A stretch of DNA of 64,000 nucleotides from Acuticoccus mangrovi (lineage in GTDB: Bacteria; Pseudomonadota; Alphaproteobacteria; Rhizobiales; Amorphaceae). The translations under genes and the position numbers were made by a program. Position 1 is the first letter of the stretch. Each line of letters opens with the position of its first letter. The notes below the pieces were generated by a model. That model searched no databases, was not told the origin of the DNA, and worked only from the letters and a program-made list of their open reading frames with translations. The stretch is taken from NCBI RefSeq assembly GCF_016411865.1, contig NZ_JAEKJA010000005.1, positions 1-64,000 of the forward strand, read 5' to 3'. Below are positions 5,372 to 62,859 of the stretch, piece after piece.

Positions 5372-5467
5372 GATCGTCGCGGACGCAAACGAGGGGCGAG
5401 AGACGAGGGTGTCATCGCTCTGTCATCGCGAGCATCGACACCCTGCGCCGAGGCAGGAGAGGGCACC

Positions 5468-51254: not shown

Positions 51255-51602
51255 TCAACTGCCGCGGTAGGTCGAGTAGGCGTAGGGCGAGACGAGGAGC
51301 GGCACGTGATAGTGCGCCGCCGTGTCGGAGACGGCGAAGGCGATCACCACCGTCTCGAGGAAGGCGGGCTCCGGTAGCTCCATGCCGAGCCGGCGGAAGT
51401 AGTCGCCCACCTCGAACTCCAGCGTGTAGGTGCCGACCTCGAAGGCCTCACCGTCGAGGATCGGCTGGTCGAGCCGTCCGTCGGCGTTGGTGGTGCCGTG
51501 GGCGATCTCGGTGCCGGCCTCGTCGCACAACGTCACCGCCACGCCGGTGGCGGGCGTTCCGTGGGCGGTGTCGAGGACGTGGGTGGTAAGGCAGCCCGTC
51601 AC
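51255..51602 (-). CDS. uraH: 5-hydroxyisourate hydrolase (transthyretin-like)
   Basis: Converts 5-hydroxyisourate, the PuuD product, to OHCU, the UraD substrate. At 115 aa it is the usual size. It starts VTGCLTTHVLDTAHGTPA (catalytic His in THVLD) and ends HYHVPLLVSPYAYSTYRGS, the strongly conserved YRGS terminus. GTG 51602 overlaps the upstream permease stop as GTGA, which supports the start. Confidence 0.97.
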   Translation of the reverse strand: MTGCLTTHVLDTAHGTPATGVAVTLCDEAGTEIAHGTTNADGRLDQPILDGEAFEVGTYTLEFEVGDYFRRLGMELPEPAFLETVVIAFAVSDTAAHYHVPLLVSPYAYSTYRGS

Positions 51603-52369
51603 CGCACGCCGCCGCGTCTCGCCCAGCCGGTGGTACGCTTTTCGATCTCGGCCATCACCGCGTACATCACGATCCCCTCCACCGCGAGCATCACGAGGCC
51701 CGCAAACACCAAGGGTACGTTGAACTGGGACTGGGCCGCCAGCATCATGTGGCCGAGCCCGGCGTTGGCGGCGATGGTCTCCGACACCACCGAGCCGACG
51801 AAGGCGAGGGTGATCGCGATCTTCAGCGAGCCGAAGAAGTAGGGCAGGGCGCGGGGGATGCCGATCTTCGTCATCACGTCCCACTTGGAGGCGCCGAGGG
51901 CTCTCAGAACGTCCTCGGTCTCGGGCTCGATGGTGGCAAGGCCCGTCGCGACGTTCACCACCACCGGGAAGAAGGCGATGAGGAAGGCGGTGATGATCGC
52001 CGGCACCACGCCGATGCCGAACCAGATGACGAGGATCGGCACCACCGCCACCTTGGGGATCGAGTTGAAGCCGACCATCAGCGGGTAGAGGCCCGAGTAG
52101 ATCGCCTTCGACCAGCCGACGAGGAGACCGAGCGCGAGGCCGCCGACGAGGGCGAGCAGGAAGCCCGCGAGGGTGGTCCACAGCGTGACGAGCGAGTTCT
52201 TCAGGATCGGCGACCAGTATTTGACGATGGCGCCGACGATCACCGAGGGGGCGGGCAGGATGTAGACCGGCATGTCGCCGATCCGCACCGCCAGCTCCCA
52301 CAGGATGATCAGCGCCACCGCGTAGATGAAGGGGGCGGCGCGGGGAGACTTGAGGAGGGTGAGGATCAT
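51599..52369 (-). CDS. ABC transporter permease (nitrate/taurine/pyrimidine type)
   Basis: Inner-membrane permease of 256 aa with about six helices. The EAA loop that contacts the ATPase is EDVLRALGASKWDVMTKIG followed by IPRALPYFFGSLKIAITLAF. It belongs to the SsuC/TauC/ThiX-like class. Linkage to uraH-xdhABC-guaD suggests uptake of a purine, urate or ureide; this is inference from the operon. Confidence 0.9.
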   Translation of the reverse strand: MILTLLKSPRAAPFIYAVALIILWELAVRIGDMPVYILPAPSVIVGAIVKYWSPILKNSLVTLWTTLAGFLLALVGGLALGLLVGWSKAIYSGLYPLMVGFNSIPKVAVVPILVIWFGIGVVPAIITAFLIAFFPVVVNVATGLATIEPETEDVLRALGASKWDVMTKIGIPRALPYFFGSLKIAITLAFVGSVVSETIAANAGLGHMMLAAQSQFNVPLVFAGLVMLAVEGIVMYAVMAEIEKRTTGWARRGGVR

Positions 52370-52412
52370 CGAGGGCCTCCGCGGGCTGGACCGGTCGCGA
52401 TGTCCCGCATCG

Positions 52413-53201
52413 TCAGGCGACCTCCTTGCGCGCGTCGGCGATCTCGCCGCGCAGCTCCTGCACGAGATCGACGAACTCGCGCTCGTAGGTGATGTCCATC
52501 GGGCGCGGCCGGGGGAACGGCACCCGATGCTCGGAGATGATGCGGCCGGGCCGGGCGCTCATCACGAAGATCTTGTCGGCGAGGTAGATCGCCTCGCGCA
52601 GGTCGTGGGTCACGAGGATCACGGTGAAGCGCTTCTGGGCGTGGAGGTCCTGCATCACCGCCCAGAGCTCTTCGCGGGTGAAGGCGTCGAGCGCGCCGAA
52701 CGGCTCGTCGAGCATCAGGAGCACGGGGTCGTGGATGAGGGCGCGGCAGAGATTGGCGCGCTGCTGCATGCCGCCGGAGAGCTGCCAGGGAAAGCGTGCG
52801 CCGAAGCCCTCGAGGCCGACGAGCGACAGGAGGTCCTCCGCCTTCTGGGTGTAGGCCGTCCGCTCGTGCTTCAGCCGGCGGCGGTGCGGGCGCACGATCT
52901 CGAGCGGCAGCATCACGTTGGCGAGCGTCGTGCGCCAGGGGAGGAGGGAGGGGTTCTGGAACGCCATCCCGGTGATCGAAAGGGGACCGGTGACGGGCTT
53001 GTCGGCCACGCGGATCGCACCGGACTGGGGCAGGTGCAGGCCCGTCGCCAATCGCATCAGCGAGGACTTGCCGCAGCCCGACGGGCCGACCACGGCGGCG
53101 AACTCGCCTTCCTCGATGCCCATGGTGAGGCCGTCGAGGGCGAGCACTTCGCCGTAGTCGGAGGGGTAGGCGAGGCGTACCCCGTCCAGCGAGACGAACA
53201 T
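52413..53201 (-). CDS. ABC transporter ATP-binding protein
   Basis: Cytoplasmic ATPase of 262 aa powering the permease. Walker A GPSGCGKSSLM, Q-loop FQNPSLLPWRT, signature LSGGMQQRANLCRAL, Walker B LLMLDEPFGALD and H-loop VILVTHDLREA are all intact, so it should be active. ATG 53201 overlaps the stop of the substrate-binding protein gene by one base (TGATG). Taurine/nitrate class, like the permease. Confidence 0.93.
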   Translation of the reverse strand: MFVSLDGVRLAYPSDYGEVLALDGLTMGIEEGEFAAVVGPSGCGKSSLMRLATGLHLPQSGAIRVADKPVTGPLSITGMAFQNPSLLPWRTTLANVMLPLEIVRPHRRRLKHERTAYTQKAEDLLSLVGLEGFGARFPWQLSGGMQQRANLCRALIHDPVLLMLDEPFGALDAFTREELWAVMQDLHAQKRFTVILVTHDLREAIYLADKIFVMSARPGRIISEHRVPFPRPRPMDITYEREFVDLVQELRGEIADARKEVA

Positions 53202-54232
53202 CAGTTGGGCAGGCGATCTTCGACGGGCGGCAGATAGGCCGGGTCGAAGACCCGCTCGGGCGCCGGCGGGTTCGGCATGTCGAACGAGGTCTGGAGCTGG
53301 GTGATCGAGGCGCCGAGCCGATCCATGTCCACGGCGCCGAGCCCGTCGGTCTCGACCGCCTCGGTCACGATGTTGTCGGCGATCGCCATCTTGAGGCGGG
53401 CGAGCTCGGTCGCCTCGTCGGCGATCTCGTTGCGGCTCATCACCGACTTGATCGCCGTCTCGGGGTCGGCGACCGTCGCCTGCAGCCCCTTCACCAGCGC
53501 GCGGACGAAGCCTTCGACCGCCTCCGGGTTCGCCTCTGCCCACTCGGTGTTGACCATCACCGCGTTGCCGTAGAGGTCGAGCCCGTTGTCGGCCATCATG
53601 ATGGCGACGATGTCGTCCTCCGCGACGCCTTGGGCGAGGAGGTTCAGCACCGAGGAGAAGGAGTAGCCGAAGATCGCGTCCACCTTGCCCTGGGCGAGCA
53701 TCGGCTCACGCACGGGAAAGCCCACATTCTCGATGGTGATGTCGGAGGTGTCGATGCCCGCCGCGTCGACGAAGGCGGCCCACTGGCCGAAGGCGGCGTC
53801 GGGCGGCGGGGCGCCGAGCGTCTTGCCCTCGAGCGACTTCGGATCCTCGGTCACGCCCTGGCTCTTGCGGCCGATCACGGCGAAGGGCGGCTTGTCGTAC
53901 ACCATGAAGATGCCCTCGACGGCGGCGTCGGGCTGATCGGCGAGGAACTTCACCAGCGCGTTGAGGTCGCCGAAACCCATCTCGTAGGCGCCGGTCGCCA
54001 CCCGCGGGATCGCCTCGCGCGAGCCGGCGCCGGTGTCGATGGTGACGTCGAGCCCTTCGTCCTCGAAGTAGCCGTTGTCGATCGCGACGAAGAAGGGGGC
54101 GGAGGGGCCTTCGAACTTCCAGTCCAGCGTGAAGCGAACCGGGGTGAGGTCCTCGGCGGCGAGGGGGGCGGCGAGGGGCGTCGCAAAAACCAGTGCTCCG
54201 GCGAAGAGCGCGGCGCGGGAGAGCTTCGACAT
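53201..54232 (-). CDS. ABC transporter substrate-binding protein (NMT1/THI5-like)
   Basis: Periplasmic binding protein of 343 aa; signal peptide residues 1-26 (ending AAPLAAE). The fold is marked by VRFTLDWKFEGPSAPFFVAID, YFEDEGLDVTIDTGAGSREAI and LEGKTLGAPPPDAAFGQW. Homologues bind pyrimidine-like or sulfonate/nitrate ligands; the operon points to a purine-derived ligand. First gene of the eight-gene minus-strand operon, divergent from phnG across 124 bp. Confidence 0.9.
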   Translation of the reverse strand: MSKLSRAALFAGALVFATPLAAPLAAEDLTPVRFTLDWKFEGPSAPFFVAIDNGYFEDEGLDVTIDTGAGSREAIPRVATGAYEMGFGDLNALVKFLADQPDAAVEGIFMVYDKPPFAVIGRKSQGVTEDPKSLEGKTLGAPPPDAAFGQWAAFVDAAGIDTSDITIENVGFPVREPMLAQGKVDAIFGYSFSSVLNLLAQGVAEDDIVAIMMADNGLDLYGNAVMVNTEWAEANPEAVEGFVRALVKGLQATVADPETAIKSVMSRNEIADEATELARLKMAIADNIVTEAVETDGLGAVDMDRLGASITQLQTSFDMPNPPAPERVFDPAYLPPVEDRLPN

Positions 54233-54356: not shown

Positions 54357-54809
54357 ATGTCGCACCCTCGTCCCGATCCGGCACGCCGTGAGGCGCTCGC
54401 CACCCTTGCGCGCGCCGACGCCGATCGGCTGAAGGCCTGCTGGGAGGCGTTCGAGCCGAAGCCCGTGCATCGCGTCGTAAAGGGGCCGGAGACGGGCCTC
54501 GTGATGGTCCGCGGTCGCACCGGCGGCGGTGGTGCCCCGTTCAACGTGGGCGAGGCGACGGCGACGCGCTGCGTGGTGCGGCTCGCGACGGGGGAGGTGG
54601 GCTTCGGCCACGTTCTCGGGCGCGACGGCGAGCGGGCGCGCTTCGTGGCCCTCTTCGATGCGCTGGGGCAGAGCGAACACCGCGACAGGGTGACGCGGGA
54701 GGTGCTGGTGCCGCTCGCCGCCGAGCGCGCCGCCGCCGCCCATCGGAAGGCGCGCGAGACGGCGGCCACCCGCGTCGACTTCTTCACCATGGCGCGGGGC
54801 GACGACTGA
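54357..54809 (+). CDS. phnG: C-P lyase subunit PhnG
   Basis: Subunit of the PhnGHIJ core complex that attaches phosphonates to ribose triphosphate and cleaves the C-P bond. The 150-aa protein shows RREALATLARADADRL, GLVMVRGRTGGGGAPFNVGE (the conserved glycine-rich loop) and LATGEVGFGHVLGRD. ATG 54357 follows GAGAGGCGGC. Head of the operon; the stop overlaps the phnH start by one base (TGATG). Confidence 0.96.
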   Translation: MSHPRPDPARREALATLARADADRLKACWEAFEPKPVHRVVKGPETGLVMVRGRTGGGGAPFNVGEATATRCVVRLATGEVGFGHVLGRDGERARFVALFDALGQSEHRDRVTREVLVPLAAERAAAAHRKARETAATRVDFFTMARGDD

Positions 54810-55384
54810 TGGACGCCGCCGTTCTGGAAGGCGGCTTCGCCGACGCCGCCCGCGACAGCCAGTCGACCTTTCGCGCGATCCTCTCCGCCCTCTCCGAGCC
54901 CGGCACGGTGCATCCCGTCACCGCCGTGGCCGCCCCTCCCGCGCCGCTCGGCCCGGCTGCGGGGGCGATCCTCCTCACCCTCCTCGACCAGGAGACGCCG
55001 GTGTGGCTCGCTCCCGCCTTCGGCGCTCCGGTCCGCGAATGGACGACCTTCCAGACCGGTGCTCCCGTCACCGAGGACCGCGCCGCCGCCCGCTTCGCGG
55101 TGCTCGACACGCCCGATCTTGCGGGCTTCGACCGGGGCAGCGACGCCTATCCGGACCGCTCGGCCACCCTGATCCTCACCGCCGACGGGGCGACGCCCTT
55201 CGCGCTCGCGGGGCCGGGCGTCGACGGGCGCAGGGCGGCCGCGCTGCCGCTCCCCGCCGCCTTCGCCGAGACCTGGGCGGAGAACCGAGCTCTCTTCCCG
55301 CGCGGGCTCGACCTCCTCATCGTCGGCGGTGAAGGGGTGATCGGTCTGCCGCGCACCACGGAGCTTCTATGTACGTCGCGGTAA
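54809..55384 (+). CDS. phnH: C-P lyase subunit PhnH
   Basis: Structural subunit of the C-P lyase core (191 aa). Typical features: DSQSTFRAILSALSEPGTVH near the N-terminus, LLTLLDQETPVWLAP, a FALAGPGVDG segment and LFPRGLDLLIVGG near the end. Active-site residues are few in this family; it forms a heterodimer surface with PhnJ. Its last 16 bases overlap phnI, indicating tight coupling. Confidence 0.95.
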   Translation: MDAAVLEGGFADAARDSQSTFRAILSALSEPGTVHPVTAVAAPPAPLGPAAGAILLTLLDQETPVWLAPAFGAPVREWTTFQTGAPVTEDRAAARFAVLDTPDLAGFDRGSDAYPDRSATLILTADGATPFALAGPGVDGRRAAALPLPAAFAETWAENRALFPRGLDLLIVGGEGVIGLPRTTELLCTSR

Positions 55385-56457
55385 AGGGCGGCGAGGCCGC
55401 GATCCGCAACGCCCACCGCCTGCTCGCCAAGGAGCGGCGGGGCGATCCGGACGTGCCGGCGCTGACGGTGGCGCAGATCGCGGGCCAGCTGTCGCTCGCC
55501 GTCGACCGCGTGATGGCCGAGGGCTCGCTCTACGACGTCGAGCTCGCCGCCCTCGCGGTGCGCCAGGCGCGCGGCGACCTCATCGAGGCGATCTTCCTCT
55601 TGCGCGCCTACCGCACCACGCTGCCGCGGCTCGGCGCGTCGGAGCCCGTCGACACCGGCAAGATGGTGATCAACCGGCGCATCTCGGCGACGTTCAAGGA
55701 TCTCCCCGGCGGCCAGGTGCTCGGCCCCACCTTCGACTACACCCACCGCCTCATCGAGCCCGAGCTTCAGGAGCCGGGCGAGGTCGCGACCGCCGAACCC
55801 GTCGGCGAGAGCCCCCGCGTCACCGACGTTCTCGGCCACCAGGGCCTCGTGGAGGCCGACGGCGAGGGGGAGGGGGAGCCCGGCGACCTCACCCGCGAGC
55901 CGCTCGACTTTCCCGCCGGGCGCGATCTGCGCCTTCAGGCGCTCGCCCGCGGCGACGAGGGCTTCCTCCTCGCGCTCGCCTACTCGACCCAGCGCGGCTA
56001 TGGCGGCACGCATCCCTTCGTCGGCGAGATCCGCACCGGCGACGTGGAGGTGGAGCTGTTCGTGCCCGAGCTCGGCTTCGCGGTGACGCTCGGCGCGATC
56101 ACCCTCACCGAGTGCCAGATGGTGAACCAGTTCAAGGGCAGCGCCACTGTGCCGCCGCAGTTCACCCGCGGCTACGGCCTCGTGTTCGGCCGCATCGAGC
56201 GCAAGGCGATGTCGATGGCGCTCGTCGACCGCGCGCTGCGGGCCGAGGAGCTCGGCGAGGAGAAGAAGGCGCCGGCCCAGGACGAGGAGTTCGTCCTCGC
56301 CCACGCCGACAACGTCCAGGCGACGGGCTTCGTCGAGCACCTGAAGCTGCCGCACTATGTGGACTTCCAGGCCGAGCTCGCGATGATCCGCGACATGCGC
56401 GCGCTGCAGGAGCGCGAGCGGCGCCGCGCCGCCGAGCGGTCGGAGGCCGCCGAATGA
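55369..56457 (+). CDS. phnI: C-P lyase subunit PhnI
   Basis: With PhnG, H and L, displaces adenine from ATP to make ribose-phosphonate triphosphate; alone it has nucleosidase activity. The 362-aa protein starts MYVAVKGGEAAIRNAHRLL, contains LAYSTQRGYGGTHPFVGEIR and FVPELGFAVTLGAITLTECQ, and near the end SHADNVQATGFVEHLKLPHY-type FVLAHADNVQATGFVEHLKL, all conserved. It overlaps phnJ by 4 bp (ATGA). Confidence 0.96.
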   Translation: MYVAVKGGEAAIRNAHRLLAKERRGDPDVPALTVAQIAGQLSLAVDRVMAEGSLYDVELAALAVRQARGDLIEAIFLLRAYRTTLPRLGASEPVDTGKMVINRRISATFKDLPGGQVLGPTFDYTHRLIEPELQEPGEVATAEPVGESPRVTDVLGHQGLVEADGEGEGEPGDLTREPLDFPAGRDLRLQALARGDEGFLLALAYSTQRGYGGTHPFVGEIRTGDVEVELFVPELGFAVTLGAITLTECQMVNQFKGSATVPPQFTRGYGLVFGRIERKAMSMALVDRALRAEELGEEKKAPAQDEEFVLAHADNVQATGFVEHLKLPHYVDFQAELAMIRDMRALQERERRRAAERSEAAE

Positions 56458-57299
56458 CCACCTACAACTTCGCCTATCTCGACGAGGCGACGAAGCGGAT
56501 GATCCGCCGCGCCCTTCTGAAGGCGGTGGCGATCCCCGGCTATCAGGTGCCCTTCGCCTCGCGCGAGATGCCGATGCCCTATGGCTGGGGCACCGGCGGG
56601 GTGCAGGTCACGGCCTCGATCACCGGCCCCGACGACGTTCTCAAGGTCATCGACCAGGGGTCCGACGACACCACCAACGCGGTCTCGATCCGCCAGTTCT
56701 TCGCCCGCGTCGCCGACGTCGCCACCACCACCTCCACCACCGAGGCGACGATCATCCAGACGCGCCACCGGATCCCCGAGACGCCGCTTTCGCCGGGGCA
56801 GATCCTCGTCTATCAGGTACCGATTCCGGAGCCGCTGCGCCTTCTGGAGCCGCGCGAGACGGAGACGCGCATCATGCACGCCCTCGCCGAGTACGGGCTG
56901 ATGCACGTGAAGCTCTACGAGGACATCGCCAAGCACGGCCGGATCGCCAAGACCTATGCCTATCCGGTGCTCGTCGAGGACCGCTACGTGATGGACCCGT
57001 CGCCAACGCCGAAATTCGACAATCCGAAGATGAACGACTCGCCCGCGCTGCAGCTCTTCGGCGCCGGCCGGGAGAAGCGGATCTACGCCCTGCCGCCCCA
57101 CACGAAGGTGATCAGCCTCGACTTCGAGGACCACCCGTTCGAGGTCCAGCGCTTCACCGAGCCGTGCGCCCTGTGCGGCTCCACCGGCGTCTATCTCGAC
57201 GAGATCGTGACCGACGACCGGGGCGGGCGCATGTATGCCTGTTCGGACACCGACTGGTGCGAGCGGGTGCGCGCCGCCCGCGCAGAGGCGGCCGAATGA
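56454..57299 (+). CDS. phnJ: C-P lyase radical SAM subunit PhnJ
   Basis: Radical S-adenosylmethionine enzyme (281 aa) that breaks the C-P bond, releasing alkane and ribose cyclic phosphate. The unusual 4Fe-4S ligands are Cys238, Cys241 and Cys263 (CALCG then X21), with the catalytic Cys269 in DTDWCERV; spacing equals that of E. coli PhnJ. NFAYLDEATKRMIRRALLKA and PYGWGTGGVQVTASI are typical. All key cysteines are present, so the lyase should be functional. ATG 56454 overlaps the phnI stop. Confidence 0.97.
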   Translation: MTTYNFAYLDEATKRMIRRALLKAVAIPGYQVPFASREMPMPYGWGTGGVQVTASITGPDDVLKVIDQGSDDTTNAVSIRQFFARVADVATTTSTTEATIIQTRHRIPETPLSPGQILVYQVPIPEPLRLLEPRETETRIMHALAEYGLMHVKLYEDIAKHGRIAKTYAYPVLVEDRYVMDPSPTPKFDNPKMNDSPALQLFGAGREKRIYALPPHTKVISLDFEDHPFEVQRFTEPCALCGSTGVYLDEIVTDDRGGRMYACSDTDWCERVRAARAEAAE

Positions 57300-57829
57300 G
57301 CCCGACGCCCGTGAAGGCGACGGTGCGGGCGGCCCGACCCGACGACGTGCCGGCCCTCACCCTCGTCAACAATTGCCCCGGGGTGCGGCGGGGCACGCTG
57401 CGCCTGCCGTTCACCTCCGAGGAGGAGGTGCGGCGGCGCATGCTCGAGCCCGGCCCCAACACCCACCTCGTCGTCGGCGACGTCGACGGCACGGCCGTGG
57501 GCTGGGCGGCGCTCTTCCGCCGCGTCGGCCGCCAGGCGCACGTCGCCGGGCTCGCCATCGCCGTCCACGACGACCACCAGGGCCGGGGCGTCGGCCGCGC
57601 GATGATGGCGGGTCTCCTCGACCTTGCCGACAACTGGCTGGGGCTCGTGCGCATCGAGCTCGACGTGAACACCGACAACGGCCCCGCCATCGCCCTCTAC
57701 GAAAGCCTCGGCTTCGAGAGGGAGGGGCTGAAGCGCGCCGAGACGCTGCGCGACGGCGTGTTCATCGACGTCATCCTGATGGCGCGCATCCGTCCCGCCC
57801 CGCTGCACCGGCCGGCAGACGCAGCATGA
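57296..57829 (+). CDS. GNAT-family N-acetyltransferase in the phn operon
   Basis: 177-aa acetyltransferase. The acetyl-CoA loop is DDHQGRGVGRAMMAGL (Q/RxxGxG/A), and the C-terminal NTDNGPAIALYESLGFEREG is typical of GNATs. It is translationally coupled to phnJ and phnK by 4-bp overlaps, so it acts with the pathway. PhnO acetylates aminophosphonates in enterobacteria; this protein could play that part, but it is longer and placed differently, so the symbol is withheld. Confidence 0.88.
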   Translation: MSPTPVKATVRAARPDDVPALTLVNNCPGVRRGTLRLPFTSEEEVRRRMLEPGPNTHLVVGDVDGTAVGWAALFRRVGRQAHVAGLAIAVHDDHQGRGVGRAMMAGLLDLADNWLGLVRIELDVNTDNGPAIALYESLGFEREGLKRAETLRDGVFIDVILMARIRPAPLHRPADAA

Positions 57830-58596
57830 GCGACACGCCGCTCCTCGAGGTCGACGGCCTCACCCGCCGCTACGGGGCCCGCATCGGCTGCGCCGACGTC
57901 TCCTTCCGCCTCTGGCCGGGGGAGGTGCTCGCCGTGGTGGGCGAGTCCGGCTCCGGCAAGACGACGCTCCTCAACACCGTCGCCCAGCGGCTGGCGCCGA
58001 GCGAGGGCGTGGTGCGCTACCTGATGCGTGACGGCACGGTGCGCGATCTCGCCACCCTCGGCGAGGCCGAGCGGCGCTTCCTCGCGCGCACCGACTGGGG
58101 CTTCGTCCACCAGCATCCCGCCGACGGGCTGCGCATGAACGTGTCGGCCGGCGGCAATGTCGGCGAGCGCTTGATGGCCGTCGGCGCCCGCAACTACGGC
58201 GAGATCCGCGCCACCGCCATCGACTGGCTCGGCCGCGTGGAGATCGCCGCCGACCGCATCGACGACGGGCCGCGCACCTTTTCGGGCGGCATGCGCCAGC
58301 GCCTGCAGATCGCCCGCAACCTCGTCACCCACCCGCGCCTCGTGTTCATGGACGAGCCGACCGGCGGGCTCGACGTGTCGGTTCAGGCGCGGCTTCTCGA
58401 CCTCCTGCGCCGGCTCGTCGCCGAGACCGGGCTCGCCGCGATCATCGTCACCCACGACCTCGCCGTCGCCCGTCTCCTGTCCACCCGCATGATGGTGATG
58501 AAGTCGGGCCGCGTCGTGGAAGACGGCCTGACCGACCGCGTGCTCGACGATCCGCAGCACGCCTATACCCAGCTCCTCGTGTCCTCGATACTGTGA
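57826..58596 (+). CDS. phnK: C-P lyase ABC-type ATPase PhnK
   Basis: ABC-class ATPase (256 aa) that binds the PhnGHIJ core rather than a transporter. Walker [17 protein letters not shown]-loop region [19 protein letters not shown] (a PhnK hallmark), signature [15 protein letters not shown], Walker [13 protein letters not shown] and H-loop [13 protein letters not shown] are intact. ATG 57826 overlaps the GNAT stop. Confidence 0.96.
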
Positions 58597-59285
58597 TGCC
58601 CATCCTCGACGTCGCCGATCTCGCCAAATCGTTCGTCCTCCACAATCGTGGCGGGGTGCGCCTGCCGGTGATGCGGGGCGCCTCGCTCACGGTGGAGGCG
58701 GGCGAGTGCGTCGGTCTCGTCGGCGCCTCCGGTGCGGGCAAGTCGACGCTGATGCGGATGATCTACGGCAACTACGGCAGCGACGGCGGCCGCATCCTCG
58801 TCGACGGGATCGACGTCGCGACCGCCGATCCGCGCACGGTGCTGCGGCTGCGGCGCGAGGTGATGGGCTACGTGTCGCAATTCCTGCGCGTGGTGCCGCG
58901 CGTGTCGGCGGAGGAGATCGTCGCCGAGCTCGCGATCGCCGAGGGCCGGCCGGCCGAGGATGCGCTCGCCGAGGCGCGGGCGCTGCTCGCCCGGCTCAAT
59001 TTGCCGGAGCGGCTCTGGGGACTGCCGCCGGCGACCTTTTCCGGCGGCGAGCAGCAGCGCGTCAACGTCGCCCGCGGCTTCATCACCGGCCATCGCCTGC
59101 TTCTCGTCGACGAGCCGACCGCCTCGCTCGACGCCACCAACCGCGAGGTGGTGATGGAGCTCATCGAGGAGAAGAAGCGCGCCGGCGTCGCGATCCTCGG
59201 CATCTTCCACGACGAGCCGGTGCGCGCTCGGGTTTGCGATCGCCTCGTCGACGTGACGGGCTTCGCTCCGGCGGTCGCCGCATGA
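58596..59285 (+). CDS. phnL: C-P lyase ABC-type ATPase PhnL
   Basis: Second ABC-class ATPase of the pathway (229 aa), required with PhnGHI for ribosylation of phosphonates. Walker [19 protein letters not shown], then [17 protein letters not shown] (PhnL-typical), signature [15 protein letters not shown], Walker [17 protein letters not shown] and H-loop [14 protein letters not shown] 58596 overlaps the phnK stop (TGATG); its own stop overlaps the next gene by 4 bp. Confidence 0.96.
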
Positions 59286-59896
59286 CGGCGCTCGGGCCGG
59301 AGCCGACGATCCACCCCGACGCCCGCATCGAGGGCGCCACGCTCGGCCGCTACACCGCGATCGGCGCCTTCACCAAGCTCAAGGACGTCACCTTCGGTGA
59401 CTACTCCTACATCGTGGAGTTCGGGGACATCCTGTTCGCGACGGTGGGCAAGTTCTGCTCCATCGCCTCGCAGGTGCGCATCAACGCGCCCAACCATCCG
59501 ATCGAGCGGGCGACCTCGCACCACTTTACCTACCGCTCCGCGGACTATTTCGACGACGCCGAGCACGACGGCGCGATCTTCGCCTGGCGCCGCGAGCACT
59601 GGGTCACCATCGGCAACGACGTGTGGATCGGCCACGGCGCCACGGTGATGCCGGGCGTCACCGTGGGCGACGGCGCGGTGATCGGGGCGGGCGCGGTGGT
59701 GACGAAGGACGTCGCGCCCTACACCATCGTCGCCGGCGTTCCGGCCCGGCCCCTGCGGCGGCGCTTTCCCGTCGACATCGCCGATCGCCTCGCGGCGCTC
59801 GCCTGGTGGGACTGGCCGCACGCGAGGCTGCGCACGGCGCTGGACGACTTCCGCAATCTCTCGGCCGCCGAATTCCTCGACCGCCACGGCGGCTGA
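59282..59896 (+). CDS. Hexapeptide-repeat acyltransferase of the phn operon
   Basis: Left-handed beta-helix transferase (204 aa) like those often found in phn operons. Hexapeptide turns are seen in [19 protein letters not shown] and [31 protein letters not shown] and [13 protein letters not shown] are typical of the xenobiotic/CatB-like group. Catalytic His is probably in [15 protein letters not shown]. Acceptor unknown, possibly an aminophosphonate or ribosyl intermediate. Last plus-strand gene before the opposed rhodopsin-like gene, whose stop lies 3 bp away. Confidence 0.9.
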
Positions 59897-59899
59897 ACC

Positions 59900-60865
59900 C
59901 TACCGGGAACGCCGCGGCCAGGCGATCACCAAGAGGCTCGCCGCGATGACGGCGACGGGCAGCAGGTCGTCCCGCTCCATGCTCCTGAGGCGGTGGAGGC
60001 TGCGCAGGGCCGGGTGACGCGGCAGGGGGCGACGTGGCGGTCTCGCGCGCGAAAGCCTCGCCGGGTCCGGCGTCGCGTCGCGGCGTGGCGTACCGTCGGC
60101 GTCCGGTCCGCCCCGCGGGGAGGCGGCTCCCTGCGGTCCGCCCGAGGCGCCGGGCGGCGTCGGCGGGCGGCCGGGGCCGACGCGCTCGTGCTTTTCCACG
60201 GCGATGAGCCGGTCGTCCTCCAGCACCACCAGCAGCCCGTAGGCGGCGCGCGAGGCGACGTCGAGGGCGATCAGGCCTGCGAGCGTCCAGGTGGCGTCGA
60301 GGAGATCGAGGGCGCCGGGCCCGACGATCATCAGCGGCGGGTAGAGGCACCACAGCACGGTGAGGAGGCCGGCGTGGCGGCGGTAGAGCTCCTGCCGCAC
60401 CGGGTGGCCCGCCGCGGCGCTGCGCGCCATCGGTCCCCAGAGGAGCCCGAGCACCGCCGCGAGGGCCGCAAGGCTCAGCGCCAGGAAGAGGAGCGCCGTG
60501 CCGCCGTGGGCGTCGAGCGCCACCGCGCCGGTGACGACCATCGCCACGGCGGCGGCGGCGCTCGCGATGGCGAGGCCGTCGATGCGCGTGCCGCGGGGCG
60601 CCGCCGTCACCGCGAGGGCGAGCAGGAGGAGCGCCGCCGTCAACGACAGGTCCACCACCCGCACCGGCACGTCGATCGCGACGTCGATGGTCTGCGCGCC
60701 GGTCGCAAGGCCCACATAGGCCGCCGCGGTGATGACGCAGACGAGGCCGTGGAGCCCCGTCCGCCCGGCCTGCCGGCGCGTGCTGGCGCCGCCGAGGAGG
60801 AGGATCGCGAGCGCGCCCACCGCCATCGCCCCGGCGCCGACCCACAGAAGCGTCGTCTCGCTCAT
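59900..60865 (-). CDS. Microbial rhodopsin homologue lacking the retinal-binding lysine
   Basis: Seven-helix membrane protein of 321 aa with clear bacteriorhodopsin-type landmarks. Helix C reads VRVVDLSLTAALLLLALAV: Arg69, Asp72 and Thr76 align with bacteriorhodopsin (BR) Arg82, Asp85 and Thr89, while proton donor Asp96 is Ala83 and Trp86 is Leu73. Helix F reads LWCLYPPLMIVG: Trp172, Tyr175 and Pro176 match, Trp189 is Met179. Helix G reads LIALDVASRAAYGLL: Asp202 aligns with Asp212 and Arg206 takes the place of Schiff-base Lys216. Covalent retinal binding is therefore not expected. After helix G comes a Pro/Arg-rich linker (about 222-298) and an eighth helix (299-316). ATG 60865 has GGGAGG six bases upstream. 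It lies reversed inside the phn locus with a PHO box upstream. Function unknown. Confidence 0.87.
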   Translation of the reverse strand: MSETTLLWVGAGAMAVGALAILLLGGASTRRQAGRTGLHGLVCVITAAAYVGLATGAQTIDVAIDVPVRVVDLSLTAALLLLALAVTAAPRGTRIDGLAIASAAAAVAMVVTGAVALDAHGGTALLFLALSLAALAAVLGLLWGPMARSAAAGHPVRQELYRRHAGLLTVLWCLYPPLMIVGPGALDLLDATWTLAGLIALDVASRAAYGLLVVLEDDRLIAVEKHERVGPGRPPTPPGASGGPQGAASPRGGPDADGTPRRDATPDPARLSRARPPRRPLPRHPALRSLHRLRSMERDDLLPVAVIAASLLVIAWPRRSR

Positions 60866-60909: not shown

Positions 60910-60927
60910 CTGTTGCCAACCTGTCAC
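60910..60927 (+). promoter_or_regulatory. PHO box between the rhodopsin-like gene and DUF1045-phnM
   Basis: CTGTTGCCAACCTGTCAC matches the PhoB consensus CTGTCATAWAWCTGTCA[TC] at 13 of 18 positions; the right half (CTGTCAC) is perfect and the left half begins CTGT. It lies 44 bp upstream of the rhodopsin-like start (minus strand) and 138 bp upstream of the DUF1045 start (plus strand). It could serve either or both. Confidence 0.55.
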
Positions 60928-61065
60928 CAAAATGTGGGAGCAAGGGGCTTCCATCCACTTGCGCTCTTTTCCGAGACCCATCGGCGCTCCAATCCTTTGA
61001 AGGTTGTTGCCCCACGAATGGCGTGCACAGCGAAATGGTTCGATAATTCGAAGGAAGCGTGCGCC

Positions 61066-61725
61066 ATGCGATACGCCCTCTACCTCACGCCGCGGCGAGA
61101 CGACCCCCTGACCGCGGCGGCCGAAGCCTGGCTCGGACGGTCCGCGTTCACCGGCGCGACCGGCGACGCGCAGGCGCCGATCGCCGCGCACGCCGCCACC
61201 CCCGCCCGCTACGGTTTCCACGGCACGATGCGCGCTCCGTTCCGCCTCGCCGAGGGGCGCACGGAAGCGGACCTCCTCGCCCATTTCGCCGTCTTCGCGG
61301 CGACCACGCCGCCGCTCGAGGTGCGGCTCGCGGTGCGCCCGCTCGCCCGCTTCCTCGCCCTCATGGCGGTCGACCACGAACCCGTCGCGGCGGCGGAGAA
61401 GAAGGGGGTGCTCCACTTCGAGCCGCTGCGGGCGCCGCTCACCGAGGCGGAGCGCAGCCGACGCAACCCAGGTGCGCTCGATTCGCGGCTGCGGGAGCTT
61501 CTCGACACCTATGGTTACCCTTATGTATTGGAAAGATTCGTCTTTCACATGACGCTCACCGGGTCCGTCGATCCTGCCGGCCTCGAGGCGGTGGAAGCGG
61601 CGGCGACCGCCCATTTCGGCGCCCTGCTCGACACACCAAGGACCCTGGTGCACGCCATTTTCCGCGAGGACGAGCCCAACGGGCCGTTCTCAATCATCGC
61701 CACCCAAGACGACTTGGACACTTGA
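61066..61725 (+). CDS. DUF1045 phosphonate-metabolism protein, 2H phosphoesterase type
   Basis: 219-aa protein of the DUF1045 family found with C-P lyase genes. Two HxT motifs mark the 2H phosphoesterase fold: YGFHGTMRAPF (His52, Thr54) and FVFHMTLTGS (His161, Thr163). In this fold such histidines open cyclic phosphates. No phnP is seen in the window, so it may open the ribosyl cyclic phosphate left by PhnJ; that is inference. ATG 61066 follows AAGGAAG, and TTCGATAATTCGAA (61039-61052) just upstream is a small palindrome. Bases 61509-61545 are unusually AT-rich for this genome. phnM follows after 3 bp. Confidence 0.88.
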   Translation: MRYALYLTPRRDDPLTAAAEAWLGRSAFTGATGDAQAPIAAHAATPARYGFHGTMRAPFRLAEGRTEADLLAHFAVFAATTPPLEVRLAVRPLARFLALMAVDHEPVAAAEKKGVLHFEPLRAPLTEAERSRRNPGALDSRLRELLDTYGYPYVLERFVFHMTLTGSVDPAGLEAVEAAATAHFGALLDTPRTLVHAIFREDEPNGPFSIIATQDDLDT

Positions 61726-61728
61726 GCC

Positions 61729-62859
61729 GTGACCACATTCACCAACGCCCGCATCGTTCTTCCCGACGCCGTTCTCGACGGTCACGTCGTGGTGGAGGAC
61801 GGCCGCATCGCCGCCATCGGCGAGGGCGCGGCGCACGGTGAGGACATGGAAGGGGACTATCTCCTTCCGGGGCTGGTGGAGCTCCACACCGACCACCTCG
61901 AGACCCATGTCGCGCCCCGGCCGCGGGTGCGCTGGAACACCACGGCGGCGATCCAGGCGCACGACGCGCAGATCGCCGCCTCGGGCATCACCACCGTGCT
62001 CGACGCGCTGCGGGTGGGGCTCGAGGCCGATTCCAGCCTGACCTCTAAGGATTCCCGCGCGATCGCCGACGCCATCAACGCCGCCCAGGCCGACGGGCGG
62101 CTGCGGGTGGAGCATCGCTTCCACATGCGCTGCGAGGTGTCGGACGAGTACGCCATTCCGGGATTCGAGCTGTTCGACGATCTCGACGGCGTCTCGCTGA
62201 TCTCGCTGATGGACCATACGCCCGGCCAGCGGCAGTTCCGCTGCCTCGACGCCTACCGCGCCTATTTCCAGGGCAAGACCGGGATGTCGGACCCCGACTT
62301 CGAGGTGTTCCAGGCCGAGCGGCGGGCCCGCGCCGCCATCTGGTCGGACAAGAATCGCCGCGAGCTCGCCGAGCGCGCCAAGGGTCGCGGCGTCGTCATC
62401 GCGAGCCACGACGACGCCACCGTCGAGCACGTCGCCGAGGCGGTGCGGGACGGGGTGAGCCTCGCCGAGTTTCCCACCACCATCGAGGCCGCCGAGGCCT
62501 CGCGGACGGCGGGCATGCGGGTCCTCATGGGCGGGCCCAATCTGGTGCGCGGCGGGTCGCACTCGGGCAATGTCTCGGTGGGCGAGCTCGCCGATGCCGG
62601 GGCGCTCGACATTCTGTCGTCCGACTATGTGCCGTTCTCGATGCTGCAGGCGGCCTTCGTCCTGAGCGAGCGCGAGGGTTGGACGCTGCCGGCCGCCATC
62701 GCCACGGTGACGGCCGCTCCTGCGGCGGCGGTGAGGCTCGACGATCGCGGCCGCCTCGCGGAAGGGCTGCGGGCCGACATGGTGCGGGTGCGCCGCAAGG
62801 ATGCGGGCGAGATTCCCGTGGTCCGCTCGGTTTGGCGCGAGGGGATGCGCGTCCTCTGA
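61729..62859 (+). CDS. phnM: Ribosyl-phosphonate triphosphate pyrophosphohydrolase PhnM
   Basis: Amidohydrolase-superfamily enzyme (376 aa) that removes pyrophosphate from ribose-phosphonate triphosphate, giving the PhnJ substrate. Metal-site motifs: LLPGLVELHTDHLETHVAPR (HxxH), IASHDDATVEHV and LSSDYVPFSML (final Asp). LMGGPNLVRGGSHSGN is a PhnM hallmark. Start is GTG 61729, 3 bp after DUF1045, so the pair forms its own unit, split from phnG-L by the reversed rhodopsin-like gene. Confidence 0.95.
   Translation: MTTFTNARIVLPDAVLDGHVVVEDGRIAAIGEGAAHGEDMEGDYLLPGLVELHTDHLETHVAPRPRVRWNTTAAIQAHDAQIAASGITTVLDALRVGLEADSSLTSKDSRAIADAINAAQADGRLRVEHRFHMRCEVSDEYAIPGFELFDDLDGVSLISLMDHTPGQRQFRCLDAYRAYFQGKTGMSDPDFEVFQAERRARAAIWSDKNRRELAERAKGRGVVIASHDDATVEHVAEAVRDGVSLAEFPTTIEAAEASRTAGMRVLMGGPNLVRGGSHSGNVSVGELADAGALDILSSDYVPFSMLQAAFVLSEREGWTLPAAIATVTAAPAAAVRLDDRGRLAEGLRADMVRVRRKDAGEIPVVRSVWREGMRVL

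Follow-up and report, generated by a model that had tools for sequence, protein, structure and literature searches.

A lysine-less opsin lineage with an extra C-terminal hydrophobic segment recurs beside DUF1045-phnM in Acuticoccus

Microbial opsins without the retinal-binding Schiff-base lysine are already known from several lineages. In the haloarchaeal opsin-related proteins (ORPs) of Becker et al. 2016, the lysine is replaced by arginine (group A) or by a hydrophobic residue (group B), HAMP/MCP genes adjoin 15 of 16 group A and 17 of 32 group B genes, a signaling role was proposed, and two expressed lysine-less proteins gave no retinal absorption band (excerpted text of PMC4915679). FArhodopsins are opsin homologues of the proteorhodopsin family that often lack the lysine (with Q, T, L or R in its place in freshwater), have a conserved neighborhood with flotillin next door, and are thought to be without retinal, and the betaproteobacterial, xanthorhodopsin-related Rh-noK (Yamauchi et al. 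2019, as described in PMC10308929) is lysine-less and stands in tandem with a working rhodopsin (both from the excerpted text of PMC10308929).

Here, we describe a lysine-less opsin-related protein, hereafter the ORP, encoded in a 64,000-nucleotide stretch of the Acuticoccus mangrovi genome (the window). It has in common with the haloarchaeal ORPs the type-1 opsin fold, the replaced lysine, and the eroded aromatic pocket. While the haloarchaeal proteins are related to sensory rhodopsins, the Acuticoccus ORP has bacterial best matches, lies in a phosphonate (phn) locus, and carries an extra C-terminal segment; the adjacency to HAMP/MCP genes is also lacking, the immediate neighbors being a hexapeptide transferase gene and a DUF1045 gene. 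Like Rh-noK, it is a lysine-less bacterial rhodopsin homologue, but unlike Rh-noK it is the product of the only PF01036 gene in its genome. The gene and its parts are as follows:

59900..60865, minus strand: lysine-less opsin-related protein (ORP), 321 aa (PF01036 at 81.8 bits, 7w74 alignment, 5 further orthologues in the genus)
60182..60865, minus strand: seven-helix opsin core, residues 1-228 (Pfam span 3-214, helices of a weak AlphaFold2 model, Foldseek matches to rhodopsins)
60248..60250, minus strand: codon of Arg206, equivalent of bacteriorhodopsin Lys216 (7w74 alignment and alignment with 33 other rhodopsins of the order)
59978..60181, minus strand: Arg/Pro-rich linker, residues 229-296, of varying length between the aligned orthologues
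59915..59971, minus strand: extra C-terminal hydrophobic segment, residues 299-317 (hydropathy; model helix 298-318 with pLDDT < 50)

The ORP frame opens with ATG and is uninterrupted; a 371-aa open reading frame listed from a GTG at 61015 is the same frame with an upstream extension. In a Pfam scan, its product matched Bac_rhodopsin (PF01036) over residues 3-214 with an E value of 6.7e-23 and a score far above the cut-off of 24.6, which four other orthologues exceed as well, and a profile search of the 5.46 Mb source genome found no second match. Upon comparing the single sequence with the PDB by phmmer, we obtained 118 distinct sequences at E <= 1, headed by 7w74, the Pseudomonas putida DTG rhodopsin PspR (77 bits, 1.2e-20). 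A profile of all six orthologues scored 92.7 bits with glycilhalorhodopsin (8xx8), up to 91.8 with cyanobacterial chloride pumps, 87.7 with a xenorhodopsin, and 82.6 with 7w74, and the nearest solved relative hence differs by query, with 7w74 leading for the single sequence and 8xx8, followed by the chloride pumps, once all six rows are used. The families concerned are retinal-binding proteins that transport ions. The closest solved relatives are the DTG/DTS rhodopsins (7w74 PspR and 8anq SpaR; excerpted text of PMC10154332), 8xx8, the chloride pumps, and xenorhodopsin, and the window ORP has a DTG/DTS-like D-T-A at positions 85/89/96, although this motif is not kept in the orthologues and the lysine is lost. 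Both checks that the earlier note had proposed for its claim of a rhodopsin fold, the Bac_rhodopsin profile and a comparison of predicted structures, returned rhodopsins: all 50 matches listed by Foldseek for each of two AlphaFold2 models (window ORP and A. yangtzensis orthologue) were rhodopsins, with TMt of 0.64-0.79. As these models are weak (each was built from a two-row alignment, with mean pLDDT of 52.5 and 58.4), the sequence match carries more weight for the fold, and we regard the assignment of the ORP to the type-1 (microbial) opsin fold as firm.

The Schiff-base lysine is absent from the entire lineage. The ORP motif DVASRAAYG aligns with DVLAKVVYA of 7w74, which sets R206 on the Schiff-base lysine, as the earlier note had read it, and the alignment with 33 other rhodopsins of the order agreed; Arg69/Asp72/Thr76, Trp172/Tyr175/Pro176, and Asp202 likewise took the places in the window ORP that the note had given them. 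Across the six orthologues, the bacteriorhodopsin-216 site reads R, R, F, L, F, C, with lysine in 0/6, a variation that rules out Arg206 as a selected functional replacement. No alternative Schiff-base lysine turned up in any hydrophobic segment of the ORP. The sole lysine in residues 1-228, K225, stands 19 residues past R206 and beyond the hydrophobic segment 197-215, while the weak model draws a single helix over 191-228 that covers it; among the six cores, the corresponding region holds 0-2 lysines per orthologue, all outside the listed hydrophobic segments.

Searching for retinal synthesis genes, another check suggested in the earlier note, gave a divided outcome, as blh was not found and crtY is present in the source genome. 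The Blh profile (PF15461) had no match in 10 genomes of the family, where the built-in controls were silent too. Throughout the order it was missing from all 17 genomes whose PF01036 match lacks the lysine and from G006 (which holds a diverged ORP copy described below), compared to matches in 6 of the 9 tested among 17 lysine-bearing genomes; the three negative ones in the latter group are 84%, 61%, and 90% complete, and the one-sided P for this contrast, 0.0004, presupposes independent rows, a condition that does not hold. CrtY of the source genome matches TIGR01789 at 421.6 bits, and a CrtW-like ketolase gene divergent from crtY reaches 233 bits with NF045690, below the cut-off of 350; given both genes, the source genome may make beta-carotene and ketocarotenoids. 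These two genes, together with the retention of the D212 and W182 equivalents in 5/6 orthologues each and the finding of retinal synthesis in a blh-less bacterium (excerpted text of PMC7734400), would be compatible with a photoreceptor after all, holding retinal non-covalently or a ketocarotenoid. We consider this highly improbable, because the lysine is gone throughout, the pocket residues vary, no Blh was found, and the two expressed lysine-less haloarchaeal proteins had no retinal band in the excerpted text of PMC4915679. We infer that the ORP works independently of retinal.

The residues around the former pocket were kept unevenly. By bacteriorhodopsin numbering, the six orthologues retain R82 in 1/6, D85 in 1/6, W86 in 4/6, T89 in 2/6, W182 in 5/6, Y185 in 2/6, P186 in 4/6, and D212 in 5/6. 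The only orthologue with the equivalents of both R82 and D85 is the window's own (the MAFFT alignment opens a gap of three columns within helix C of G005, and the ungapped reading likewise lacks both residues), and the D212 equivalent is gone in the G006 copy. Accordingly, the proposal in the earlier note that the protein works by "using the conserved charge cluster" fails for R82 and D85, and we ruled out a mechanism of this kind. Its remark on lost pocket tryptophans is correct for the window ORP, which lacks both W86 and W189, but does not generalize: tryptophan is kept at position 86 in four of the six orthologues, and its absence at 189 is no special loss, since the lysine-bearing 7w74 (F) and G314 (L) are also without it there. 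The same residues bear on a possible transport role, in which the ORP, as transporter or channel, would pass a product of phosphonate breakdown or a related anion along the old ion path. The best profile matches include chloride pumps, many rhodopsins move ions, the locus would suit such a role, and arginines lie on the presumed cytoplasmic face, but the ion-path residues vary as listed above for R82, D85, T89, and D212, which makes a transporter distinctly improbable.

Conservation of sequence now appears to center on the presumed cytoplasmic face and no longer on the retinal pocket. The six-way alignment has 23 invariant columns, of which the charged ones are R31, R35, R157, and R163 only; bacteriorhodopsin topology would put these four on the cytoplasmic side, within loops A-B and E-F. 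The G006 row of this alignment begins one codon late and so lacks its first Met, with no effect on the columns used here. As R163 is common to rhodopsins generally (compare 7w74), the conservation of the arginines is not all special to the ORP. Beyond helix G, a pattern LED..L...E is found in 5/6 orthologues (in window numbering L215, E216, D217, and E224 kept in 5/6 and L220 in 6/6). All six orthologues then continue with the linker and a C-terminal hydrophobic segment of ~19 residues, an eighth hydrophobic segment that the earlier note did not contain. The region before it reads approximately TPFGxLxRxDxxPVA in four orthologues and differs in the window and G006 versions, and the residues after it are basic in most. 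The topology of the tail is unsure, because the core should end inside and yet the residues past helix 8 are basic, which sits oddly with an outside C-terminus.

To place the lineage, we compared it with other rhodopsins of the order, where 34 of 397 genomes (drawn from a larger group) had a PF01036 match and 17 of these 34 lacked the lysine: five in Acuticoccus, eight with Arg, and four with Leu at the site. The 12 non-Acuticoccus lysine-less loci (L056-L067) all have a flotillin match adjoining and an SSF-symporter match beyond, with an ABC ATPase match in 11/12, missing only in the shorter L063 stretch; flotillin was Pfam-confirmed in two of the 12. Likened by gene kinds and not by sequences, these 12 opsins fit FArhodopsins, and their genomes, at 3.2-6.3 Mb, do not belong to the streamlined groups where FArhodopsins were described. 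By contrast, 0/8 Acuticoccus loci had a flotillin match, and in a tree of 34 order rhodopsins, a sampling without haloarchaeal or fungal ORPs, a 100/100 branch split the Acuticoccus ORPs from both the flotillin-linked and the proteorhodopsin-like rows. The five Acuticoccus proteins grouped at 92/77, below the program's star, and the lysine-bearing G314 rhodopsin stood on their side of the 100/100 branch with all others opposite; long branches were flagged. In this tree, the Acuticoccus lineage thus stands apart from the FArhodopsin-like lysine-less opsins. Our searches of titles and abstract starts, mainly in the open-access literature, found no account of an Acuticoccus rhodopsin or of an opsin in a phn/C-P lyase locus; the new element is a separate genus-level lysine-free opsin lineage whose members share an eighth hydrophobic segment and a constant position by DUF1045-phnM.

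This place was read in the earlier note as lying between phnL-hexapeptide transferase and DUF1045-phnM, and family matches bear it out (TIGR02324, TIGR03308, TIGR03223 below its cut-off, and TIGR02318):

54357..56457, plus strand: phnG (54357-54809; TIGR03293 at 155.8 bits), then genes at the phnH and phnI places
56454..57299, plus strand: phnJ (PF06007 at 489 bits; no NCBIfam match)
57296..57829, plus strand: GNAT-type N-acetyltransferase (acetyltransferase NCBIfam matches, none above cut-off)
57823..58596, plus strand: phnK (TIGR02323 at 390 bits, above cut-off)
58593..59285, plus strand: phnL (TIGR02324 at 302 bits, above cut-off)
59282..59896, plus strand: phosphonate-locus hexapeptide transferase, convergent neighbor (TIGR03308 at 312.5 bits, above cut-off)
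61066..61725, plus strand: DUF1045 gene, divergent neighbor (PF06299 at 142.8 bits; TIGR03223 at 192.6 bits, under the cut-off of 248.95)
61729..62859, plus strand: phnM (TIGR02318 at 477 bits, above cut-off)

The names phnH and phnI are our assumption from gene order and sequence features, with no PhnI match for the gene at the phnI place in the NCBIfam scan, and the GNAT-type gene would be phnO-like by its position. The phn block seems to border a purine-catabolism cluster, as NMT1-type ABC transporter genes (window 51255-54232, minus strand) lie beside a frame that we take to resemble 5-hydroxyisourate hydrolase. The DUF1045 protein has a sub-threshold 2_5_RNA_ligase2 match in the Pfam scan and resembles 2H phosphoesterases. 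By analogy with the 2H-phosphodiesterase genes of phnP-lacking phn operons, whose products were suggested to open cyclic ribose phosphate (excerpted text of PMC10574752), this DUF1045 protein may do the same.

Among eight Acuticoccus genomes (Hyphomicrobiales, Amorphaceae), the ORP is carried by six and stands head-to-head with DUF1045-phnM in 6/6, so that surveying phn loci, as the earlier note had suggested, did find the same insertion elsewhere. The order of the window (phn core, phnL, hexapeptide transferase, ORP on the opposite strand, DUF1045-phnM) recurs in G002, G003, and G007, and in G005 and G006 the genes close to the ORP-DUF1045-phnM group are instead homologous to those for the NMT1-type ABC transporter of the window. 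Two genomes, G001 and G004, have DUF1045-phnM without an ORP. phnJ was found in 7 of the 10 family genomes (the genus set plus two from a sister genus) and not in G005 (98% complete, 7 contigs), G008, and G009; in G006, phnJ and the ORP are on different contigs. As the carrier G005 has no detectable phnJ, the ORP follows DUF1045-phnM rather than the C-P lyase itself, and strict coupling to C-P lyase is ruled out; of the tie to the phn locus claimed earlier, the recurrence within the genus stands and the C-P lyase link is loose. The phnM-DUF1045 pair of G005 (locus L031) is an orphan in this respect.

The genes beyond phnM bear on a further reading, that of a non-photic chemotaxis or second-messenger sensor which signals to an MCP or GGDEF-EAL protein encoded there, as proposed for haloarchaeal ORPs. 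A NIT-HAMP-MCP gene lies by phnM in convergent orientation in G002, G003, and G007 (L032:5478-7514, L033:12059-14098, L034:4502-7000), in G005 a Cache MCP gene is reached ~3 kb past phnM, and in the source genome phnM is followed by a GGDEF-EAL gene, which recalls the HAMP/MCP linkage of the haloarchaeal genes (excerpted text of PMC4915679); the G006 contig ends ~1 kb beyond phnM and leaves no view of a signaling gene. However, the signaling gene differs by genome and is not adjacent to the ORP, the opsin-less G001 has a GGDEF-EAL gene as well, and the MCPs have a sensor domain of their own (NIT or Cache). We hence deem this sensor improbable.

So far, the ORP is confined to Acuticoccus in what was searched. 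PF01036 matches occurred in 5 of the 10 family genomes and in neither of the two from the sister genus, and tblastn revealed a sixth, highly diverged but uninterrupted copy beside DUF1045-phnM in G006 that has no Pfam match. The five further orthologues are 42, 41, 37, 37, and 26% identical to the window ORP. A profile search over 115 genomes of the class returned the source genome and one 19.5-bit match with an internal stop; contig scans with short peptide patterns, from which the own genome and near kin may have been left out, yielded nothing with one sequence and A. yangtzensis only with the alignment; phage families gave no matches. Spread on plasmids was rejected, as tblastn found no match in 72,556 plasmid records. 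On the DUF1045 tree, where G004 groups with G005 (96/96) and G001 with the source genome (89/90), ORP presence and absence needs two changes, and the best-fitting reading is an ORP in the genus ancestor followed by two losses; the phnM tree is unresolved for the same question. In the opsin-less G001, a 147-aa open reading frame (locus L053:4446-4889, plus strand) occupies the place and orientation of the opsin, and its end (RRRK, a short hydrophobic stretch, and a basic tail) resembles the ORP tail; the ORP tail profile gave no match to it, and a post-hoc pairwise score was equalled by 20 of 2000 architecture-keeping shuffles.

We found the ORP to be fast-evolving yet constrained at the protein level. 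Raw pN/pS over five genomes was 0.77 for the ORP, 0.49 for DUF1045, and 0.30 for phnM, values that we did not rely on, given the near-saturation of third positions; instead, each codon position was compared with its own shuffled expectation, giving a fraction of saturation. For positions 1/2/3, the core of five orthologues stood at 0.62/0.50/0.87, the linker at 0.76/0.68/0.96, and the tail at 0.72/0.44/1.01, compared with 0.24/0.17/0.70 for phnM and 0.45/0.33/0.84 for DUF1045, while the core against G006 (0.82/0.73/0.94) came closest to neutrality. With position 2 well below position 3, the protein is constrained, but loosely, and least so in G006. The main rival explanation is that the ORP might be a decaying relic that lost its lysine and pocket and whose frame survives only by slow decay in GC-rich genomes. 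Its fast evolution, its loss in 2/8 genomes, the nearly neutral G006 copy without a Pfam match, and the short G001 frame, maybe a leftover tail, speak for a relic. Yet the reading frames are uninterrupted in six of six orthologues although in the five-genome core third positions have reached 0.87 of saturation, with second positions at 0.50, and the tail segment, the four arginines, and the place beside DUF1045 are kept in 6/6, so that we judge a relic unlikely.

A possible link to phosphate supply comes from a repeat in the intergenic region between the two divergent genes:

60911..60936, plus strand: candidate Pho box, three direct repeats with an 11-base period, in the ORP-DUF1045 divergent intergenic region

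The pattern TGT-N8-TGTCAC-N6-TGTG, at <=1 mismatch, occurs once in the window against 0.03 expected. A near-identical pattern, with TGTY as first repeat, is present in G002, G003, G004, G007, and the source genome, that is in 5/8 genus loci and 4/6 carriers, and is missing in G001, G005, and G006; no non-genus locus among 77 loci had it, although this rarity is not independent proof, since the pattern was read off these very loci. Against the classical Pho box, the window site scores 10 of 14, which 16 of 300 shuffles reached, and the best classical-box scores of the eight genus regions were equalled in 16, 15, 136, 9, 114, 75, 183, and 13 of 300 shuffles. Genome-wide, the classical box at <=1 mismatch has three sites in the source genome, compared to 0 for the reversed pattern, and one of these lies ~50 bases upstream of alkaline phosphatase; the ORP-side repeat is not among the three. 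Because it is also present in the ORP-less G004, the repeat may serve DUF1045-phnM only, and both points together leave Pho control of the ORP as possible only. Two further Pho-box-like repeats, each with one mismatch, were seen: one at window 5409-5426, upstream of an open reading frame at ~5468 that presumably encodes a chromate transporter, and one at locus L078, near 23068 of contig C31 in genome G000, between crtY and the divergent crtW-like gene and ~55 bases upstream of crtY, from which carotenoid synthesis is perhaps phosphate-linked.

Taken together, we tentatively favor a retinal-free ORP that is kept beside DUF1045-phnM and serves at the membrane as an adaptor or sensor that does not depend on light and that contacts a cytosolic partner at low phosphate; the earlier note's "sensor or carrier" linked to the supply of phosphate remains a reasonable guess. 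We suggest that its ancestor may have been a lysine-bearing bacterial rhodopsin from the broad DTG, chloride-pump, and xenorhodopsin side, that the Schiff-base lysine would have been lost before the sampled Acuticoccus species split, and that the gene would since have stayed in a single position, head-to-head with DUF1045-phnM. On this view, the seven-helix scaffold persists while residues of the retinal pocket and the proton path drift, and conservation rests on the cytoplasmic face (Arg31, Arg35, Arg157, Arg163, and LED..L...E in 5/6), the linker, and the C-terminal hydrophobic helix. When phosphate is short, a cytosolic protein could dock on the cytoplasmic face and the tail, the probable candidates being gene products of the DUF1045-phnM branch or a signaling protein. 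Our confidence in such an adaptor or sensor is tempered by several observations: the gene is dispensable, with two of eight genus genomes lacking it; it evolves fast (pN/pS 0.77, third positions near saturation); the G006 copy is without D212 and a Pfam match and is nearest neutrality; and the Pho-like repeat is present in the ORP-less G004 and missing in G001, G005, and G006. A more specific version, in which a Pho-controlled eight-helix opsin-fold protein would recruit or regulate the DUF1045-PhnM branch at the membrane, or report cyclic ribose-phosphate intermediates, through its cytoplasmic face, appears rather unlikely.

Lysine-less opsins are hard to study, as there are few hints at their role. 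With an ORP beside DUF1045-phnM in six of eight Acuticoccus genomes, including one without detectable phnJ, the question of what an opsin does without retinal becomes a growth and localization experiment with a defined nutrient class, for which clear mutants are suggested by the eighth segment and by where conservation now lies, on the presumed cytoplasmic face rather than in the retinal pocket. Overall, the lost pigment site, the extra segment, and the recurrent locus suggest that in this genus the opsin fold has been put to a light-independent job.
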